Under the pieces are notes generated by a model, which ran no database searches, was not told the DNA's origin, and worked only from the letters and a program-made list of their open reading frames with translations. The translations under genes and the position numbers were made by a program. From assembly GCF_024346355.1 (NCBI RefSeq), contig NZ_JAGQCU010000005.1:1-64000 (forward strand): a DNA stretch of 64,000 nt, read 5' to 3'. Origin of the DNA: Cyanobium sp. ATX 6A2. GTDB lineage: Bacteria; Cyanobacteriota; Cyanobacteriia; PCC-6307; Cyanobiaceae. This document shows positions 236 to 7,702 of this stretch, piece after piece (position 1 is the stretch's first letter; each line of letters begins with the position of its first letter).

Positions 236-463
236 ATGCTCCAATCTGATTTTAGTCTTCCCAGCAGACTCTTCGGGTTTCAACTGATAACTGCTGCCTA
301 TACTCCCGTTACCGCCAAGATGGGCAATGGTGACTGGCCAATCGAGCCGCAAGATAAGTCTTCACCAACCAGTTCAGCGCTCACTGCCAAGGTTGCAGAT
401 CCGGTAGAACCGATACAATCCAGCAACACTCACTTCACCAATCCACAGCGCGCTCTCACCTGA
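236..463 (+). CDS. Candidate RiPP precursor peptide 1 (GF-x10-TAK family)
   Basis: A 75-residue frame starts at ATG 236; an in-frame TTG lies at 215. Residues 12-15 are LFGF, followed by exactly ten residues and then TAK at 26-28. A second TAKV-like stretch lies further on. The same LFGF/GF-x10-T[AS]K pattern recurs in the frames at 500 and 791. Between the three copies many differences in the shared residues are at third codon positions (GGG/GGT/GGC, TTT/TTC), as expected for translated sequence. The C-terminal half is rich in Pro, Ser and Thr and differs from the other copies, like a variable core after a conserved leader. It lies upstream of, and on the same strand as, a peptide beta-hydroxylase gene. 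I know of no named family that matches. Function as a precursor is inferred. Confidence 0.5.
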   Translation: MLQSDFSLPSRLFGFQLITAAYTPVTAKMGNGDWPIEPQDKSSPTSSALTAKVADPVEPIQSSNTHFTNPQRALT

Positions 464-499
464 CTCCCCATAAGAAATCTCTCTCAAATCAACCGACCC

Positions 500-676
500 A
501 TGCAACATCTGACATCAGCATCCGGTCTCTTCGGTTTCATGCAATCTGGCGCGATTGAATCGCACACCACCGCCAAGGTGTCATCAGATACTGAGCCGCA
601 TCCCGATAGTCAGCGAGCTTGCGAGCCCTCTACCAGCAGCTCACACAAGACCTTTGCGATTCGCAATGCTTCATAG
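500..676 (+). CDS. Candidate RiPP precursor peptide 2 (GF-x10-TAK family)
   Basis: A 58-residue frame runs from ATG 500 to TAG 674-676. It starts MQHLTSASGLFGF, with LFGF at residues 10-13, then ten residues, then TAKV at 24-27. This is the same order and spacing as the frame at 236. The remainder (DTEPHPD, one Cys, Ser-rich) is unlike copy 1. No clear Shine-Dalgarno sequence precedes the ATG. The lack of a ribosome-binding site and the short length are the main reasons for doubt; the conserved spacing is the main reason to believe it. Confidence 0.45.
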   Translation: MQHLTSASGLFGFMQSGAIESHTTAKVSSDTEPHPDSQRACEPSTSSSHKTFAIRNAS

Positions 677-790
677 ATACTCGCTCTAGCATCTGTTGAT
701 TGAGAACGCTCTCAACCGAGCGCTTCTTCTCAATTTGCGTCATCAGTTTAGCCTCATTCTACTACCGCATTGATCTAGTGAACACTACCC

Positions 791-928
791 ATTCCCCAGC
801 TCCCCTCAACCTTTCGCGCGTCCCTTGGCTTCAAGCTAGTTGAGATCACAAATTCGGCTACCACTTCCAAGGTTGGTGGCTTGGAACCCATGCCCGCGAA
901 ACCACCCACCAAGCCGTTGGCCAGCTGA
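791..928 (+). pseudogene. Third GF-x10-TSK peptide frame, start unclear (remnant or non-ATG start)
   Basis: A frame open from 782 to TGA 926-928 encodes SLGF, ten residues, then TSKVGGLEP. It matches the two upstream peptide frames in order and spacing. It has no ATG, GTG or TTG before the conserved part; the first possible codon is ATT at 791. A GTG at 778 opens a different frame, so a single-base shift could have broken a longer gene. The C-terminus is short and Pro/Lys-rich. It ends 39 bases before the hydroxylase start. It may be a decayed copy, or a gene using a rare start. Confidence 0.4.
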
Positions 929-967: not shown

Positions 968-2083
968 GTGATTGCTGACGAGGTCGGCCTTAGCAATAGG
1001 GTTCTTAGCTGTCTGAACAGCGCCCAAATCCACTTGGCTGAGTCTCTTTCGCTGCTTGACAAAGCTGCGCCTGATTTATCCATTGGTGATGTTGTTCGAG
1101 AGTTAAACTTGCTCTTGAGCCAACACCCTGTTGGGCTGAGCCCTTGGATTTATCTTGGCTATTACGAGCTTGGAAAAGTGGTGTTGCAGGCAGGGGGCAA
1201 TCCCCATCCACCTGGTGGGCCACCCCAGCCAAGCCCTGATCAGCAGGTGGTGGAGTTCCATGCAGCAAACGCACTTGCACTGATCCAGCATGGATTGACA
1301 GCGTCTAGATTCAACACCGAAGCTCGCAATCCACAGGTCATAGGCTTCGGCGATCCCGCCGAGGCCTCTGCTCAGATGTGGGCTACACTGCTGGCCATGT
1401 TGCAGGAGGGAGGTGATTTTGTCGTCGACATTTGTTCGCCAAGCAGCGAGACAATTGGACAATTTGAAGCGGCAATTCGCGATGCCCGGCGTTTGATCTC
1501 ACTGGTGAACCCAGCGCTGGATACCCTGATGAGTCGGCTGCAGCGACTGCTGCTGCTGGCTGAACCAGGTCCGCAGGCTCGTACCGCCGGGCAGAATTTC
1601 GGGGGCGCCACCGCTTTCTTCTTTCGCGGTGGCAGCGTGATCAACGCCAGCCGGCAGCTTCACCCCACAGCGATGCTGGAGCTGCTGGTGCATGAATATG
1701 CCCACGGTGAACTGTTCGCCCTGGGGCAGGAGCAGGTGCTGTGCCTGAATCAGGATGATGAGCGCTATCCGGTGCTGATCCGCAGCGATCCTCGGCCGAT
1801 GCATGGCATCCTCCATTCCCTCCACGTGGTGTCGCGGGTGGTGGGCGTGATTGACAAGATCCTGCAACTCTCTCCGGCTGCACTCCCTGATGGGGGTGCA
1901 TCACAGCCTGCCTTCCGCGACTTGCTGGTTCGTCAGCATGCCTACGGGCGCTCCTCCCTGGCCGCCATTCGCGAGCATGCCCGGCTCACCCCTCTTGGCC
2001 AGGAGGTGGTGGAGGCCGCGGTCTGGCGGCTGGGTCTGCAACAGGCCGAGCCGTCCTACCTGCAGACCGCAGAGAGCCTCTGA
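968..2083 (+). CDS. aKG-HExxH-type peptide beta-hydroxylase
   Basis: A 371-residue protein with HEYAH at residues 242-246, followed about 26 residues later by RSDPRPMHG and a His-rich helix (H279, H283, H286). The HExxH plus DPRP-x-x-G-x-x-H layout is that of the 'HEXXH motif domain' family, now named aKG-HExxH-type peptide beta-hydroxylases. Family members are iron enzymes that hydroxylate side chains of ribosomal peptides, usually encoded beside their precursor genes. The start is GTG 968, with AAGGA at 955-959 eight bases upstream. The stop is directly followed by the ATG of the acyl ligase, so the two are probably translationally coupled. Three short paralogous peptide frames lie just upstream and are the natural candidate substrates; that link is inference. 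Confidence 0.75.
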   Translation: MIADEVGLSNRVLSCLNSAQIHLAESLSLLDKAAPDLSIGDVVRELNLLLSQHPVGLSPWIYLGYYELGKVVLQAGGNPHPPGGPPQPSPDQQVVEFHAANALALIQHGLTASRFNTEARNPQVIGFGDPAEASAQMWATLLAMLQEGGDFVVDICSPSSETIGQFEAAIRDARRLISLVNPALDTLMSRLQRLLLLAEPGPQARTAGQNFGGATAFFFRGGSVINASRQLHPTAMLELLVHEYAHGELFALGQEQVLCLNQDDERYPVLIRSDPRPMHGILHSLHVVSRVVGVIDKILQLSPAALPDGGASQPAFRDLLVRQHAYGRSSLAAIREHARLTPLGQEVVEAAVWRLGLQQAEPSYLQTAESL

Positions 2084-3523
2084 ATGCCGACGACCTGCCT
2101 GCGCAACCAGCTGCAGGAGCGTTGGCTGCACATCACCGCTGCGGATCCAGGTGCACCGGCCATCGACTGGCTGGGGGAGGAGACCCTCAGCTTCCAGGAC
2201 CTGGCCGAACGGGTTGCGAATGAACAGTCTCAGCTCGAACGGCTGATCACAGCAACCGAGTCGAACGCAATGCCCAGGGTGGGTGTGCGGATCGCCAATG
2301 GCGCCCAGAACCTGATCAGCGGGCTGGCACTCTTGCTGGCGGGCATTCCTCAGGCCATCCTGCCGATCACTGCCACAGCTACGGAGCAAGAACACCTGGA
2401 GCGTCGTCTCGGGCTGAGCCATCGGCTCGGCCACGAAACCCCGCAAACTGAAGGGCCTTGGACCTTCCTGGGCCGTGTGCCCTCCGGGCTGGGCTGTTGG
2501 CACAACCCCACCCAAGAGCTGACGGAACCTGGAGACCCGGGCGATCCCGACGTCTTTCTGGGTACCACGTCTGGCACCACATCCGGGTTGCCCGGAGTGA
2601 TCAGGATGCGGGCCAAGGCGGTGCTGGCCCCTGCCAATCCCGATTCCCCCTACCAGCAGGTGCGGACCCCGCTGCTGGGAGAGGGTCTCCAGAATTGGAG
2701 CGCCCGCTTATACAAACTGATGACGCTGATCCGCGGTGGGCAGTTGGTGATCCGCCGATTGGATCAGCCGTTTCAACCTGGAACCATCCCGTGCCGCTGT
2801 GACGGCATGCCGATGCCCCCGAACATGCTGCGGATGCATCTGGCCTGGGACGATCTGCGCCACTGCCCGGAGGGTTTTCTGCTGATCAGCGGCAGCGACC
2901 GTGTGCCCATGGCACTGCGACAGGCAGTGGTCGCCAGCGGACCCGTGCGTCTCGGCATCACCTACGCCACCAGCCAGAGCGGCCCCCTCACCTGGCTGCC
3001 GCCCGAGGCCGTGCTGGATGAACGGGAGTCGGTGGGCTGGCCCATCCCCAGCGTGAAGCTGGAGCCCACAGGTCCGGAGCGCTACGCGCGTGACGGTTTG
3101 TGCTTTCGCGAAGTGATCGCCACAGCTCCAGGCCGCGACCCGTTCAATCCCGGAGATCTGCTGGCGTTCTCGGCATCAGGCCAGGTGATCTTCGGGGGCC
3201 GCTCCAATGATGTCTTCCTGTTTTCAAGCCTGCTGATCTCACCCTTTGAGATCGAGGAGGTGCTGAGCCAGCACCCGGCTGTGGAGCAGTGCGTGGCCTT
3301 CGGGGCCCAATCCGAGCGCTACGGCGGAGTGCCGATGGCCGCCGTGCGCCTGCGACCCGGCCATGAAGCCGCCACAGTTCTCACCGAACTCGACCAGCTG
3401 GCCCGCGACAGCCTCGGTCATCGCCGTCCCCGCCGGATCATTCCCCTGGACACCATCCCCGAGGGGCCAACGGGGAAGCCACTGCGACGGGTTCTTAGTG
3501 AGCAGTTCGCGCTCCAAACATGA
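2084..3523 (+). CDS. AMP-dependent acyl (acyl-ACP/CoA) ligase
   Basis: A 479-residue member of the adenylate-forming (ANL) superfamily. TSGTTSGLPGVIRM at about residues 165-180 is the A3 phosphate loop, though the usual Pro-Lys ending is altered. GRSNDVF followed by ISPFEIEE is the A8 hinge. GPTGKPLRR near the C-terminus carries the catalytic A10 lysine. It activates a carboxylic acid as an acyl-adenylate; the acid is not predictable from sequence. The ATG abuts the hydroxylase stop, and the stop overlaps the next gene (ATGA). With a carrier protein encoded nearby, loading of a fatty acid or amino acid onto that carrier is plausible. A broken paralogue lies at 5455-6340 on the other strand. 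Confidence 0.8.
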   Translation: MPTTCLRNQLQERWLHITAADPGAPAIDWLGEETLSFQDLAERVANEQSQLERLITATESNAMPRVGVRIANGAQNLISGLALLLAGIPQAILPITATATEQEHLERRLGLSHRLGHETPQTEGPWTFLGRVPSGLGCWHNPTQELTEPGDPGDPDVFLGTTSGTTSGLPGVIRMRAKAVLAPANPDSPYQQVRTPLLGEGLQNWSARLYKLMTLIRGGQLVIRRLDQPFQPGTIPCRCDGMPMPPNMLRMHLAWDDLRHCPEGFLLISGSDRVPMALRQAVVASGPVRLGITYATSQSGPLTWLPPEAVLDERESVGWPIPSVKLEPTGPERYARDGLCFREVIATAPGRDPFNPGDLLAFSASGQVIFGGRSNDVFLFSSLLISPFEIEEVLSQHPAVEQCVAFGAQSERYGGVPMAAVRLRPGHEAATVLTELDQLARDSLGHRRPRRIIPLDTIPEGPTGKPLRRVLSEQFALQT

Positions 3524-4581
3524 CCGTTCCCCCCCAACTCGCCTGGGAAGAGCTGGAGCGGCAGCTGCGCGCCGAAGACCCGCAGATCTGGTATCAGCGC
3601 CTCAAGACCTTGGAGACCAACCGCTTCAATCAGCATCAGATGCTGCTCGACCGCTTCGCCACGGGAAGCGAACTGAAAGCCCTGTTCAGGCTGGCCCGCC
3701 GCGATGCGAACGCCCATCCCGGGTTCCAGCCATGGCGACAGAAGGCAAAACAGTTCTCACCGTCCTATGGGTCGGCCACGGCGCGCTTCCGCCGGCGCGT
3801 GCACCGGGGCCGACACCACGAGATCCTGCACTATCAAGGCGCTCCTCTACCCGGTACCGACCCATGTCCTCGGCCTGTGTTGATCGGCTTCACCGGGAAT
3901 GTGGGCCTACTGATGGCACCAACCCCTTACATTCTGTCGGCGCTCGGGATCATCGGACACGATCTGCTGCTGGTTCGACGGCACACGTTGGAGGGATATT
4001 TCCACCACGAGGGACAGGTTTTGCGAGACATCTCCCGTCATCTACGTCAGCGTCTGGAAACGCTCGCCCGCCGCGGCCTCTGCCGTTCCCAGGTGCAGTC
4101 TCTGGGCACCAGTGCCGGAGGACTTGCAGCCCTGGCGGTGGCCCAGAGGCTGGCACTGGCCCAAGGAGTGGCCATCGGTGCAGGGGGTGGGCCGGAAACC
4201 TTTCGTCCCGGTGGCCCAGTGCAGAGGGCCCACTCCGGGATCGGCAGCTGGTGGCCGCGCTCCCAGCGGACACCCCTGGTGCTCGCGTACCCCGAGCACA
4301 ACGATACCGACCGCGTGAGCGCCGGCTGGGTCGCCAACTACTACCAGCAAAAGCACCCTCGCCAAACCACCATCAGCGGACGTGCCTACAGGGGCTGCAC
4401 CAACCACACACTGTTTAAGGATCTCATCCAGCAGGGGGTGACTCTGGAGGACGCCCTGCCCGGCCTCCTGCGCCGAGGACCTTGGGCCGACACTGCGGCG
4501 AAACATACTGATCCGCTGGCCCGGAAGGTGGGGGCGGCAGAGCTGCAGGCTGGACGAATGGTCGCTGGCGAGAATGTCTGA
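3520..4581 (+). CDS. Alpha/beta-hydrolase-like protein of the peptide island
   Basis: A 353-residue soluble protein with no signal peptide. GTSAGG at residues 196-201 is a nucleophile elbow with Ser198. A downstream YPEHNDTD segment and NHTLF near residue 305 could supply the acid and His of a Ser-Asp-His triad. It overlaps the acyl-ligase stop by four bases (ATGA), so the two are coupled. Possible roles are a thioesterase releasing or editing an acyl group, an acyltransferase, or a peptidase removing a leader; sequence alone does not choose between them. It runs convergently towards the carrier-protein gene with a 23-base gap. Confidence 0.55.
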   Translation: MTVPPQLAWEELERQLRAEDPQIWYQRLKTLETNRFNQHQMLLDRFATGSELKALFRLARRDANAHPGFQPWRQKAKQFSPSYGSATARFRRRVHRGRHHEILHYQGAPLPGTDPCPRPVLIGFTGNVGLLMAPTPYILSALGIIGHDLLLVRRHTLEGYFHHEGQVLRDISRHLRQRLETLARRGLCRSQVQSLGTSAGGLAALAVAQRLALAQGVAIGAGGGPETFRPGGPVQRAHSGIGSWWPRSQRTPLVLAYPEHNDTDRVSAGWVANYYQQKHPRQTTISGRAYRGCTNHTLFKDLIQQGVTLEDALPGLLRRGPWADTAAKHTDPLARKVGAAELQAGRMVAGENV

Positions 4582-4604: not shown

Positions 4605-4961
4605 TCAGTCCACCTGGGCCCGGATCGACTGGATCAACGCCTCCACCGACTCCATGGTGATCAGGGTTTCCGGGGTGATCACCACCCCATGATCAAGTTC
4701 CAGATGGATGCAGAACTCCATGCGGCCGAGGCTGTCCAGCCCAAACCGCTCGATCGGCAAGGTGGCGTGATGCTGACGCAGCTCAGCCTCCAGCCCCTCG
4801 AGATTCGGCGGAGGCAAGGAGAGCGACCGAAGCCCGTTCAGGATCAGGTCAATCTCCCTGGCAGGGTCAAGGACCTCATCCACACTCACTGTTCCAGATC
4901 CTGGCGAATCGCTCACAGTCTGCTCCACACCAGGCAATCGACCACCAGACTGCCCCTGCAT
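4605..4961 (-). CDS. Acyl/peptidyl carrier protein
   Basis: A 118-residue protein whose residues 35-118 look like a carrier domain. RFGLDSLGRMEF contains the D-S-L phosphopantetheine motif with Ser77, followed by an acidic helix and the terminal helix SVEALIQSI. The first 30 or so residues are a low-complexity extension. Carrier proteins tether acyl or aminoacyl groups as thioesters. It is on the strand opposite the ligase/hydrolase operon and the same strand as the broken second ligase. The cell's housekeeping fatty-acid ACP would be more acidic and about 80 residues, so this is a dedicated carrier. Its partner is most likely the acyl ligase at 2084. Confidence 0.75.
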   Translation of the reverse strand: MQGQSGGRLPGVEQTVSDSPGSGTVSVDEVLDPAREIDLILNGLRSLSLPPPNLEGLEAELRQHHATLPIERFGLDSLGRMEFCIHLELDHGVVITPETLITMESVEALIQSIRAQVD

Positions 4962-4969
4962 GACAGTGA

Positions 4970-5452
4970 CGAAGCTCCATTCGTGAGGAACCAGCCGAAA
5001 CTTACCGCACCAGTAGGGGCGCCACAGCTGATCCGCGAGGTCGAATCAGCTGTGGCGCCATCGCTCTTGCAGCCCTGGTCAGCAGCCTTGGTTACCCCTG
5101 CTCGGCAGAGGAAATGGAACAACGACTTGACTCCATGCCCCGGCATCTCTACAAGAAATTCGTAGCCGGGATAGATGGAGTTGCCACAGGACTGGTAGGA
5201 GTTATCATCGCTCCCGTTTATACCCACAATGAGCCGATTGGCTGAATCCTGGTGCTGGTAGTCGATCCCGCACAGCGAGGACAGGGCATCAGCAATCGAC
5301 TTCTCATCCATGCCGAGCACTACATGGTCAGCCGGGGCGTGCGGGCATCCCAGCTCTACTCAAAGATGTCCAACCGGCCGGCCCACCTCTTTTACAGCAA
5401 GCGGGGCTACGCGCCCGAAGCATTTCGGTTTCTCAAACGCCTGGCTGGCTGA
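4970..5452 (+). pseudogene. GNAT family N-acetyltransferase, broken by an in-frame stop
   Basis: Read in one frame, 5039-5242 encodes a GNAT N-terminal half (ALVSSLGYPCSAEEMEQRL, then GVATGLVGVII). A TGA at 5243-5245 follows, then the acetyl-CoA-binding half VVDPAQRGQGISNRLL and the terminal HLFYSKRGY motif up to 5452. One stop codon, apparently replacing a codon at the end of a beta strand, separates the two halves, and no proper start is visible before 5039. The fragment could still make a 66-residue peptide from GTG 5252, but this would lack half the fold. GNAT enzymes acylate amines, so this may once have been an acyltransferase of the island. Confidence 0.65.
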
Positions 5453-5454
5453 AT

Positions 5455-6340
5455 TCGCCGTGGGGATCGGGTCCAGCCCATCGACAAACTGCACCACAGC
5501 CATGGGAACGGCGCCATAGACGCTCGACTCAGCACCGAAGACCACAGCTTCTCGAACACCAGGCTGGGCTTCAAGGAAGGCCTCCAGTTCAACCGGCGAA
5601 ACCAGCACGCCTCTCAGCAGAAAAACATCGTTGGCTCTGCCAGCGAAGGCAAACTGGCCATCCTGCAAACGACGGAGGTGATCCCCCGGACGAAAGCCGT
5701 GGAGGTGTTGCTGGTGAGTTCGCCACCCACCACCGACCTCCGGGACAGCGAGCATCTGGGTCTTCTCCACAATGATTTCGACAGCCCCGTCAGCACCCGC
5801 TCCTCCACAAACCCCAGGCACACCCCCGGAACAGGCCAGCCGACAGACGCCTCCGCTCCCATGGGCTGATCGGAGGGAAGGAAGGTGATCGGACCGCACT
5901 GTTGCTGGCCCCAGGTCGCCAGCCCTGAGGTGCGAAGCCGGGGCTATCGCTAAGTATCCAGTCACAACCATGCATCCCCACCAGAGCCTCGATCTCCTGG
6001 GAAGGGGCATAGCCCGGCAGCACAATCTGGCAGTGTCCGACCAGCAACAGTGCGATCCCCAAGACGAGATTGGGCAGGCCATCTTCAAAGTGGATGCCGA
6101 TCTGACCGGGGTCATCAAGCCAGCCACCACCTACCAGCGCGGAAGTGGGCCTGGTGCACGGCAAAGGCGAATGCGTCGCGGGTCGCAGCCCGTTCCGTGC
6201 TCCACACGACATCCGCAGCCGGAGCCTCTTCCTGCCAGCCTTGAATAAAGATCCGGAGAAGCTGGCGCAGGTCGCCGCAGGCCTGGGCCAGTTGCTGGTG
6301 CCGAGGAAGACCTCCCGCTCCGGGCCAGCCGCACAGGCGG
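5455..6340 (-). pseudogene. Second AMP-dependent acyl ligase, frameshifted and internally deleted
   Basis: Pieces in at least three reading frames match the intact ligase at 2084-3523 in order. An N-terminal piece around 5950-6130 (GLPNLVLGIALLLVGH, compare GAQNLISGLALLLAGI) is followed by VGWPVPGV near 5840. A C-terminal piece at about 5460-5680 has FAGRANDVFLLRGVLVSP and VFGAESSVYGAVPMAVV. About 500 bases that would encode the A3 phosphate loop are missing between the first two, so no active enzyme can be made. It is on the carrier-protein strand and ends against the GNAT remnant. Confidence 0.75.
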
Positions 6341-6459
6341 TTCACTGCAACAGGGGCATGGTGATCAGCGGATTGCTGAGAGCACCTTGTGAACAACCCG
6401 CTGTTCCAGCCGGCTCACCGAAACGACGGCCAACAGAGGAGTCGCTCTCCCCCACTCGC

Positions 6460-7167
6460 TCACCCCTCCAGCTTGAAGTCCTGCAGGGCGGTGAAGTCAA
6501 CCTGCACCGAGGGGCCCATGGTGGAGGTCACGTAGAGGGAGCGCCAGTAGCGGCCCTTGGCGCCGCTGGGTTTTTGGCGGTCGATGGTTTCCTGCAGGGC
6601 CTTGAGGTTGTCGAGCAGCTTGGCGGCGTCGAAGCTGGCCTTGCCGAAGCGCACGTGCACGATGCCGGTGCGGTCGGCGCGGAACTCGAGTTTGCCGGCC
6701 TTGAATTCGGCGATGGCCCCGGCCAGGTTGGTGGTGACGGTGCCGGCCTTTGGGTTGGGCATCAGGCCGCGGGGACCGAGCACCCGGCCCAGCTTGGCCA
6801 CCTTGGGCATCATGTCGGGGGTGGCGATCAGCAGGTCGAAGTCCATCTGCCCCTGGGCGATGGCGTCGACCAGGTCCTCGTCGCCGGCCAGGTCGGCCCC
6901 GGCGGCCTCGGCGGCGGCAACCGCTTCACCGCGGGCGATCACGGCGATGCGGATGGACTGACCCGTGCCGTGGGGCAGGGCCACGGTGGTGCGCAGCTGC
7001 TGATCGGTGTATTTGGGGTCGATGCCCAGGCGCACGTGGGCTTCGATCGTCTCGTCGAACTTGGCGGTGGCGTTGGCCTTCACCAGCTCAATGGCCTCGA
7101 GCGGGGCATAGGCCCGGTCGACCACCTTGGCGGCCAGTTCGGTGTAGCGCTTGGAAATCTTGGGCAT
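6460..7167 (-). CDS. rplA: 50S ribosomal protein L1
   Basis: A 235-residue L1, the protein of the 50S L1 stalk, which also represses its own operon in bacteria. The start is the ATG at 7167 ([17 protein letters not shown]). The frame stays open 59 codons upstream, but that extension runs across the rplK 3' end and is not part of L1. [16 protein letters not shown] is the family signature. Downstream there is no rplJ-rplL, the usual next genes; the broken acyl ligase of the island follows instead. No obvious terminator hairpin lies after the stop. Confidence 0.97.
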
Positions 7168-7247
7168 GGCAGGAGTGGGGTACGGGCGACCTTGCGGTCT
7201 CCCCCGGGTTGGGTGAACGGTGAACGGGACTGGCGCGGGTGGCCAGG

Positions 7248-7283
7248 GCGAATCGGTCTGCGAATCAGTCAGCGAATCAGTCG
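7248..7283. repeat. 12-base tandem repeat, three units, at the rplK stop
   Basis: Three consecutive 12-base units read GCGAATCGGTCT, GCGAATCAGTCA and GCGAATCAGTCG on the plus strand. The last unit contains the rplK stop codon. They sit at the start of the 109-base rplK-rplA spacer, where the L1 autoregulatory site can lie in other bacteria. They may be a slippage product without function. Confidence 0.7.
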
Positions 7284-7702
7284 TTGACGGCCACGCCCAT
7301 GTTGCGGGCGGTGCCTTCGATGATGCGCATGGCCGACTCCACACTGCTGCAATTCAGGTCGGGCAGCTTGGTCTTGGCGATCTCCTCGAGCTGGGCGCGG
7401 GAAATGGCACCCACCGACCCCTTGGCGGAGGTGGCGGCACCCTTCTCGATGCCGGCGGCCTTGGAGATCAGCACCGAAGCGGGCGGGGTCTTGGTGACGA
7501 AGGTGAAGCTGCGGTCTTCAAAGACCGAGATCTCCACCGGAATCACATAGCCGGCCTTGTCCTGGGTGCGGGCGTTGTACTCCTTGCAGAACGCCATGAT
7601 GTTGACGCCGTGCTGACCGAGGGCAGGGCCCACGGGAGGTGCCGGATTGGCTTTGCCGGCCTGGAGGGCCAGCTTGATTACGGCAACGACTTTCTTGGCC
7701 AT
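7277..7702 (-). CDS. rplK: 50S ribosomal protein L11
   Basis: A 141-residue full-length L11. The N-terminal [20 protein letters not shown] and [15 protein letters not shown] are the conserved L11 start. The C-terminal RNA-binding domain ends in [15 protein letters not shown]11 binds the GTPase-associated centre of 23S rRNA. It lies between nusG and rplA on the same strand, the standard cyanobacterial order. Confidence 0.98.

Follow-up and report, generated by a model that had tools for sequence, protein, structure and literature searches.

Small LFGF...[ST]AK peptides encoded beside an αKG-HExxH hydroxylase in Cyanobium sp. ATX 6A2, a rare candidate RiPP family

The window, that is the whole stretch of 64,000 nucleotides analysed here, comprises the first 64 kb of contig C42 of Cyanobium sp. 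ATX 6A2 (source genome label G000), whose assembly consists of 46 contigs. The contig opens with a compact cluster of small peptide frames, a peptide hydroxylase, an AMP-forming ligase, an α/β-hydrolase-fold protein and a carrier protein, followed by two broken genes and by rplA (Table 1). The ligase frame starts at the base directly after the hydroxylase stop codon, and the hydrolase and ligase frames overlap by 4 bases. Further on, past rplA, the genes rplK and nusG were read by eye. Between the precursors and rplA, no gene was recognised as coding for a transporter or a leader peptidase, and no RRE-type recognition domain was present among the Pfam and NCBIfam matches listed, the NCBIfam lists of two proteins comprising at most 25 entries. 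Promoter and terminator scans gave matches at chance level only. Moreover, a search of five loci with Rfam yielded four Cyano-1 RNAs, every one of which lies outside the cluster.

Table 1 Features at the opening of the window, with positions counted from its first base
Feature	Position	Strand	Details
Putative precursor peptide 1	236..463	+	75 aa, ATG start; LFGF motif 269-280; two cores
Cores of putative precursor peptide 1	308-349; 380-412	+	VTAKMGNGDWPIEP (308-349); LTAKVADPVEP (380-412)
Putative precursor peptide 2	500..676	+	58 aa, ATG start; LFGF 527-538; single core TTAKVSSDTEP 566-598
Precursor-like frame 3	791..928	+	46 codons including stop; LGF; single core TTSKVGGLEP 860-889
αKG-HExxH peptide hydroxylase	968..2083	+	371 aa; TIGR04267 74.6 bits
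AMP-forming (ANL superfamily) ligase	2084..3523	+	479 aa; PF13193, PF00501, alignment and PDB profile matches
α/β-hydrolase-fold protein	3520..4581	+	353 aa; alignment of five sequences, predicted model, Foldseek
Acyl/peptidyl carrier protein	4605..4961	-	118 aa; GLDSLG phosphopantetheine site; PF00550 25.2 bits (cut-off 20.8)
GNAT acetyltransferase remnant, broken	5114..5452	+	frame cut by a stop; longer relative in G056
Second AMP-forming ligase, broken	5360..6396	-	pieces lie in different reading frames; assembled by eye with the G056 relative as guide
rplA (ribosomal protein L1)	6460..7344	-	marks the site between rplJ and rplA

The gap between the matched parts of rplJ and rplA measures 283 to 356 bases in five genomes of the same genus that have no TIGR04267 match (G002, G005, G006, G008 and G012). 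The distance is 4.5 kb in G009 and 10.3 kb in G056. In the source genome, 628 bases separate rplJ from the end of contig C7 and the cluster stands at the opening of C42, so that the cluster is likely to be located between rplJ and rplA here as well, on two contigs that are unjoined. A frame at the end of C7 (KQLGFGDYEQATAKKR; L087, 1260-1328) was considered as a fourth precursor and rejected because it resembles the N-terminus of a transposase and carries LGF...TAK by chance. We take this frame to be the start of an IS5-type transposase, which, if so identified, likely explains why the assembly is interrupted between rplJ and the peptide cluster. A transposase-like gene, read by eye, is also found in the G056 cluster beside the GNAT gene (L020, 3983-5551), and this cluster contains longer relatives of both the GNAT and the second ligase. 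Furthermore, the DNA around CTGCTGTCTGGGGT(C/T/A)GGGCGCGTGCCC is conserved beside rplJ (L019 near 7971, L020, L021, L029, L087 and L088); the stretch occurs with and without the cluster and is probably part of the rplJ 5' region. Part of the window copy appears to be decaying, given the missing normal start of frame 3 and the broken state of the GNAT gene and of the second ligase.

The initial annotation had described three paralogous frames with a GF-x10-T[AS]K signature. The pattern is indeed present in all three: frames 1 and 2 start with ATG and carry LFGF and GF-x10-TAK, frame 3 carries LGF and GF-x10-TSK, and the GF-TAK units align to one another without gaps. However, the start assigned to frame 3 at 791 is an ATT codon and no ATG, GTG or TTG is available, so that this copy may have a weak start or be in decay. 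The three starts have similar DNA (cccaATG, cccATG and cccATT), with the ATT of frame 3 aligned opposite the ATGs, and the ribosome-binding sites look weak by eye. The strict motif occurs three times in the window, always within bases 1-967 and upstream of the hydroxylase. Dinucleotide shuffles of these bases gave a mean of 0.001 occurrences and a maximum of 1 (2000 shuffles), and shuffles of the whole window a mean of 0.033 and a maximum of 1 (60 shuffles). In all three window pairs pS (0.67-0.82) is higher than pN (0.45-0.50), and the differences at codon positions 1, 2 and 3 amount to 72, 60 and 99 over the 142 codon pairs of these comparisons. dS is saturated in two of the three pairs; the remaining one has a dN/dS of 0.50. 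Two features had escaped the initial annotation, namely a second TAK at residues 50-52 of peptide 1 and the E-P that follows each of the four window cores.

The neighbouring gene had been read as a peptide hydroxylase, and the family assignment is borne out by a TIGR04267 match well over the cut-off of 40 bits. The HEYAH motif of the αKG-HExxH enzyme covers residues 242-246 (1691-1705). H242, E243, H246 and H283 are invariant in the seven hydroxylases of the LFGF type, and H283, which is part of DPRPMxGIxH, is likely to be the third iron ligand. The closest solved structure found with a sequence profile is that of ChlH (8s5f, E 0.0039), with a match over HExxH and RPxxGxxH. A structural model built from the seven sequences (pLDDT 81.4) retrieved the same entry, the HExxH domain of ChlBH, in a Foldseek search (E 1.7e-7, TM 0.55-0.60). 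SjiH (22ob) was also above noise with an E-value of 1.9e-4, and the remaining matches had E-values of 0.1 or worse. The window hydroxylase is predicted by this model to have the ChlH fold with HExxH and a downstream His. In a tree of 21 HExxH rows, the seven LFGF-type rows form a clade with a support of 100/100; the remaining rows are poorly placed because of their long branches. According to the accessible part of one source, the residues of RiPP precursors that characterised HExxH enzymes β-hydroxylate are His, Asp, Phe, Gln and Pro (PMC13060819). PflC and PosC, as far as the accessible part of their description goes, additionally cleave the backbone oxidatively, which makes backbone cleavage at the core a further possibility for the window enzyme (PMC12636437).

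The recurrence of peptide and hydroxylase was assessed in 400 genomes of the family Cyanobiaceae, 12 of which contain TIGR04267 matches. The LFGF-type hydroxylase subfamily is present in seven of the 400 (G000, G004, G009, G056, G352, G357 and G377, G004 belonging to the same genus as the source genome), and the LFGF...[ST]AK peptide occurs in the same seven. The six foreign enzymes are 39-45% identical to the window enzyme, and all six foreign loci contain a small frame with LFGF[KRQ]L and [ST]AK at a distance of 0 to 312 bases from the hydroxylase frame. A profile of the nine precursors gave strong matches (E 1.3e-8 or better) in these seven genomes alone; 77 of the 400 genomes had a match at E 10 or better, the best one outside the seven having an E-value of 0.01. 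Since the nine-precursor profile was built from the same loci and is circular in this respect, a profile of the three window peptides was run as well. Among 5758 frames from 19 hydroxylase loci, it placed the six foreign precursors at ranks 1-6 (E 0.0042 to 0.28; rank 7, E 0.69). Applied to 60 complete genome sequences, the three-peptide profile lacked strength and recovered two of the six foreign precursors (E 0.09 and 0.38) amid chance matches. A wider hydroxylase profile (A1) matched 5 of 388 genomes of the class, 5 of 42 genomes from the genus of G352 and 1 of 16 from that of G056, so that the cluster must be regarded as rare and patchy. A supposed second precursor on contig C188 of G357 was rejected, as it represents the same gene once more, on a contig end that overlaps.

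Where dN/dS could be measured in the foreign peptides, it ranged from 0.13 to 0.41 in three diverged sets (G460, G195 and G207/G299, some of them with dS >1 and two G460 pairs saturated), though the closest precursor pair, G352/G357, has a value of 0.71 over few changes. As judged from these substitution patterns, the peptide frames are under protein-level selection. Both expectations of the initial annotation, namely that the motif should recur beside the enzyme and that homologous copies should show a third-position bias, thus agree with what was found: seven of the 400 family genomes carry the pair, the three-peptide profile ranks the six foreign precursors first, and the diverged sets have low dN/dS values. 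Moreover, the peptides had been said to carry a leader other than the Nif11/NHLP type. In agreement with this, no NCBIfam family matches the peptides tested, and Pfam returned one chance plant domain with an E-value of 1.

The precursors are 45-82 residues long. In the nine peptides of the LFGF type, the LFGF motif (SLGF in window frame 3) lies within residues 4-15 and the core Lys at residues 20-55, while linkers and tails are variable. The core follows roughly the consensus [ST]AK[VIMF]G-x-EP and is present once or twice per peptide. Two cores are found in window peptide 1 and in the G009 peptide, the G056 peptide has two and a degenerate third, and the other peptides have one. An acidic residue and Pro follow the core Lys in 12 of the 13 K[VIMF]x stretches. 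The corresponding pattern, K[VIMF]x with E-P or D-P within a few residues, was written after the peptides had been seen; its 12 copies compare with 0.096 on average and at most 2 in shuffled peptides (2000 rounds). Multi-core precursors are known in other RiPPs, and because the core unit is repeated, one precursor could carry several products or modified sites. The plan proposed by the initial annotation, a conserved N-terminal and a variable C-terminal part, needs to be adjusted: separate leader-like and variable parts do exist, but the conserved motif is bipartite and its TAK belongs to the start of the repeatable core. Likewise, the spacing of exactly ten residues does not hold as a general rule. 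Counted by hand, the distance from GF to the first [ST]AK is 9, 15, 17, 26, 36 and 38 residues in the six foreign LFGF peptides. The ten-residue spacing was therefore rejected as a signature and is largely incidental. In the G056 peptide, a first, non-TAK core (HPK) is located ten residues past GF.

The bipartite plan is also present in five more genomes, at four HExxH loci in the family and at one locus in another cyanobacterial family. G035 has two peptides with LHGF...A-K-[IV]-G, G207 and G299 have LHGF...GARLG, G195 has four tandem peptides with YGF/SGF...[AS]KIG, and G460 has five tandem frames with LLGF...QAKI[GS], one of which is without ATG. Thus, 12 of the 19 genomes with any TIGR04267 match (E 0.001) show the plan; two of the 19, G476 and G728, are under the curated cut-off of TIGR04267. 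With a pattern that was defined post hoc and with G728 excluded, frames carrying both motifs were counted at up to 1.2 kb from a HExxH gene (21 in 74.5 kb) and farther off (5 in 254.5 kb). Of these, 19 of the 21 near frames and 2 of the 5 far frames were judged to be family members. Regular-expression matches near L076 and L079 were rejected because they look like chance. The idea that an LxGF-type peptide accompanies every HExxH enzyme was also rejected, as none was seen at G335 (where the HExxH gene lies at a contig end), G476, G481, G528, G533, G551 and G728. Furthermore, no such peptide was seen beside the HExxH gene on three gammaproteobacterial (enterobacterial/vibrio) plasmids. The HExxH family as a whole is hence not tied to the LxGF peptide, given the 7 of 19 cyanobacterial genomes without the plan and the three plasmids without the peptide.

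Some of these loci have other neighbours. On the three plasmids, the HExxH gene adjoins an MFS-type transporter gene (L082, 6890-9001; L083, 6797-9126; L084, 5234-7522), which is annotated as such on the Pantoea and Xenorhabdus plasmids and was read by eye as a membrane-protein-like frame on the Photobacterium plasmid. The G533 locus (L077, 4180-13051) contains three HExxH genes together with other large frames, one of which looks radical-SAM-like by eye. A search for related loci with the single hydroxylase protein retrieved none, and the alignment retrieved five, that is four loci already seen and L034. In the latter, which derives from a gammaproteobacterial MAG (HyVt-581), two near-identical small frames (MxKIKLDATKLLGNTQKGR...) stand beside the HExxH gene (2142-2539). 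These paralogs were rejected as LxGF-type precursors because they are without GF and AKIG; perhaps they represent another type of precursor.

We propose, with a probability of roughly 0.7, that the three frames encode precursors belonging to a rare RiPP family whose peptides would undergo HExxH-dependent hydroxylation followed by an amide or ester modification via an activated carboxylate. That the frames belong to a RiPP precursor family had already been suggested by the initial annotation, and this view has gained from the recurrence beside the HExxH enzyme, the bipartite anatomy and the coding bias; the modification of the peptides we infer. The RiPP status is well supported by the anatomy, and the proposal as a whole builds on the recurrence, the selection acting on the peptides, the enzyme family, its predicted fold and the invariant residues. 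The N-terminal LFGF(K/R/Q)L would probably serve as the recognition (leader) element, and the core would consist of one or two [ST][AS]K-(V/I/M/F)-G-x-E-P units, with the degenerate third in G056. The HExxH enzyme probably hydroxylates a core residue, most likely the conserved Lys or the branched residue that follows, in either case at the β-carbon. The ligase, together with the carrier and the α/β-hydrolase where they are present, may constitute a split adenylation/carrier/thioesterase module, which would activate a carboxylate and transfer the putative acyl group to the core as an amide or ester, with the Lys amine or the new hydroxyl as candidate acceptor, or else would form a lactam between Lys and Glu. 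Maturation could finally be achieved by a peptidase encoded elsewhere in the genome.

The assignment of the ligase relies on PF13193 (46.3 bits, cut-off 24.5) and on PF00501, which at 29.8 bits falls just under its cut-off of 29.9. Lys 465 in GxxGKxLRR is invariant, and a profile of the enzyme matches CoA ligases and NRPS adenylation domains in the PDB; these matches do not fix the substrate. By tblastn, an AMP-forming ligase was found in all seven LFGF clusters, and the carrier and the hydrolase in six of them. In G004, for instance, the gene order is hydroxylase, carrier, precursor, ligase and hydrolase. In G377 the peptide, the hydroxylase and the ligase are present, the ligase frame ending 31 bases from the rplA frame, and tblastn detected neither carrier nor hydrolase within 15 kb. 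A relative of the GNAT was found by tblastn in G056 alone among the six foreign clusters. The more distant loci are organised differently. G195 encodes a protein of 844 residues with an AMP-binding domain (37-366, 86.2 bits), a PP-binding match at 548-593 that is weak (17.0 bits, under the cut-off of 20.8) and a thioesterase-like GFCLAG stretch that was read by eye; the functions of ligase, carrier and thioesterase-like enzyme seem to be joined in this one protein, which adjoins a protein with sub-threshold ATP-grasp matches. In G035, G207 and G460, the neighbour is an ATP-grasp protein. Those of G035 and G460 show partial matches to cyanophycin synthetase models, far under the cut-offs, the G207 and G035 proteins share 42% identity, and G299 has only a shorter frame of this protein. 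No window-like ligase or carrier was detected by tblastn in G035, and no ATP-grasp match was obtained for the window genes tested with Pfam and NCBIfam. The peptide-hydroxylase pairing is thus constant, whereas the carboxylate-activating partners change between lineages.

An alternative outcome of the ligase step would be the closure of a graspetide-like intramolecular Lys-Glu lactam. The ligase would adenylate the Glu of the K-V-G-x-E-P core and the Lys amine would close the ring, with hydroxylation by the HExxH enzyme taking place before or after ring closure. We consider this route conceivable but unlikely. It would fit the acidic residue and Pro that follow the core Lys in 12 of the 13 stretches, the ATP-grasp proteins of the distant relatives and also, in the accessible part of its description, corallotide, in which a Lys-Asp isopeptide is followed by hydroxylation of Lys in a repeated KIVAD by a different 2OG enzyme (PMC13097080). 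However, the spacing from Lys to Glu varies between 3 and 9 residues, no Glu or Asp follows the core in four of five G460 cores, in both G207/G299 peptides and in one G035 peptide, and the carrier protein would be left without a role. Moreover, AMP-forming enzymes are not known to act as RiPP macrocyclases, which further counts against a lactam.

The α/β-hydrolase may likewise be interpreted in two ways. Ser198, Asp264 and His296 are invariant in an alignment of five sequences and would form the catalytic triad. The predicted model (pLDDT 80.2) matches esterases, dipeptidyl peptidase IV and FAP in Foldseek, with TM scores of 0.38-0.45 by query length, and these matches do not fix the substrate. 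Since peptidases are among them and no other peptidase was recognised in the cluster, the protein might be a serine peptidase that removes the leader, and not a thioesterase or acyl transferase. We regard this role as doubtful, because the gene was not found at the G377 locus and because the G195 protein seems to join adenylation, carrier and a thioesterase-like end. It is still less probable that the small frames encode real regulatory or structural peptides that are not substrates, and that the HExxH enzyme hydroxylates a carrier-bound amino acid of an NRPS-like operon. The resemblance of ligase, carrier and hydrolase to a split A/T/TE set and the HExxH relatives on the three plasmids without such peptides would be compatible with this idea. 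However, what stays constant is the pairing of peptide and hydroxylase, and protein-level selection acts on the peptides. G377 retains peptide, hydroxylase and ligase where tblastn detects neither carrier nor hydrolase within 15 kb, and an ATP-grasp protein is present in G460 and also next door in G035, which by tblastn is without a window-like ligase or carrier. Finally, chance or non-coding repeats are hardly credible: the third frame without a usual start, the lack of a fitting Pfam or NCBIfam family for the peptides tested and the ribosome-binding sites that look weak by eye have to be set against three motifs where the shuffles give 0.001, the recurrence at six foreign loci and the synonymous excess.

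Returning to the RiPP reading, it can be asked whether the family forms a RiPP class of its own. The hallmarks of this class would be an LxGF leader followed by an A(K/R)(V/I)G core and a stand-alone αKG-HExxH hydroxylase, and its carboxylate-activation step would be exchanged between lineages, being performed by the split AMP-ligase/carrier/hydrolase, by a fused A-T-TE-like protein or by a cyanophycin-synthetase-like ATP-grasp enzyme. We put this forward tentatively and with less than even confidence. If it were true, three activation arrangements from two enzyme superfamilies would serve the same kind of peptide, and an NRPS-style module would acylate or aminoacylate a ribosomal peptide on a fresh hydroxyl or on Lys. 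In any case, the locus represents a compact system of short precursors, a single hydroxylase from an enzyme class recognised only recently and a partner for acid activation that varies from lineage to lineage. Such a system could reveal whether ribosomal peptides are subject to NRPS-like activation, and the LFGF...[ST]AK signature can be used for finding further members.

A description of the LFGF...[ST]AK peptide family was not found by title or abstract in the open-licence literature. With ChlH/ChlBH, PflC/PosC, BpmH and PesO (TIGR04267 / IPR026337), the window cluster has in common the enzyme family, the predicted fold and a small adjoining precursor gene, and the region of HExxH and RPxxGxxH is shared with ChlH. 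It differs from these systems in its partner enzymes, which are an AMP-forming ligase, a carrier and a hydrolase, whereas radical SAM, MNIO or Asn-synthetase-like proteins were not seen in the cluster; moreover, the precursor matches no Nif11/NHLP-type model and its core is another one. Hydroxylation of Lys or of a branched residue would add a site to those given in the accessible part of PMC13060819.

Graspetides, in particular corallotide (group 15) as far as the accessible part of the source describes it, resemble the locus in the repeated short Lys motif with a later acidic residue, the carboxylate-activating enzyme and the hydroxylase (PMC13097080). The same part of the source states that group 1 graspetide clusters often contain AMP-binding and/or α/β-hydrolase proteins, so that such proteins beside a RiPP precursor are not unheard of (PMC13097080). 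The ATP-grasp proteins at distant relatives of the locus add to the likeness. In contrast to graspetides, the window ligase belongs to the ANL superfamily and not to the ATP-grasp enzymes, the HExxH fold is not that of a classic 2OG oxygenase, and the acidic core residue is not conserved across the wider set. Selidamides and nostolysamides are lipid-acylated RiPPs that are formed by GNAT enzymes with other precursor types. Acylation of a core Lys would be common to them and the family described here, and a GNAT is present in G056 and as a remnant in the window; however, the window GNAT is broken, and by tblastn one of the six foreign clusters has a relative. NRPS-like A-T-TE proteins, to which the apparently fused G195 protein comes closest, share the ligase, the carrier and the hydrolase with the cluster. 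They differ from it in that no condensation domain is among the matches listed for the cluster, which combines these enzymes with a ribosomal precursor and a HExxH enzyme. We therefore regard the LFGF...[ST]AK family as a kind of RiPP and not as a new kind of system.
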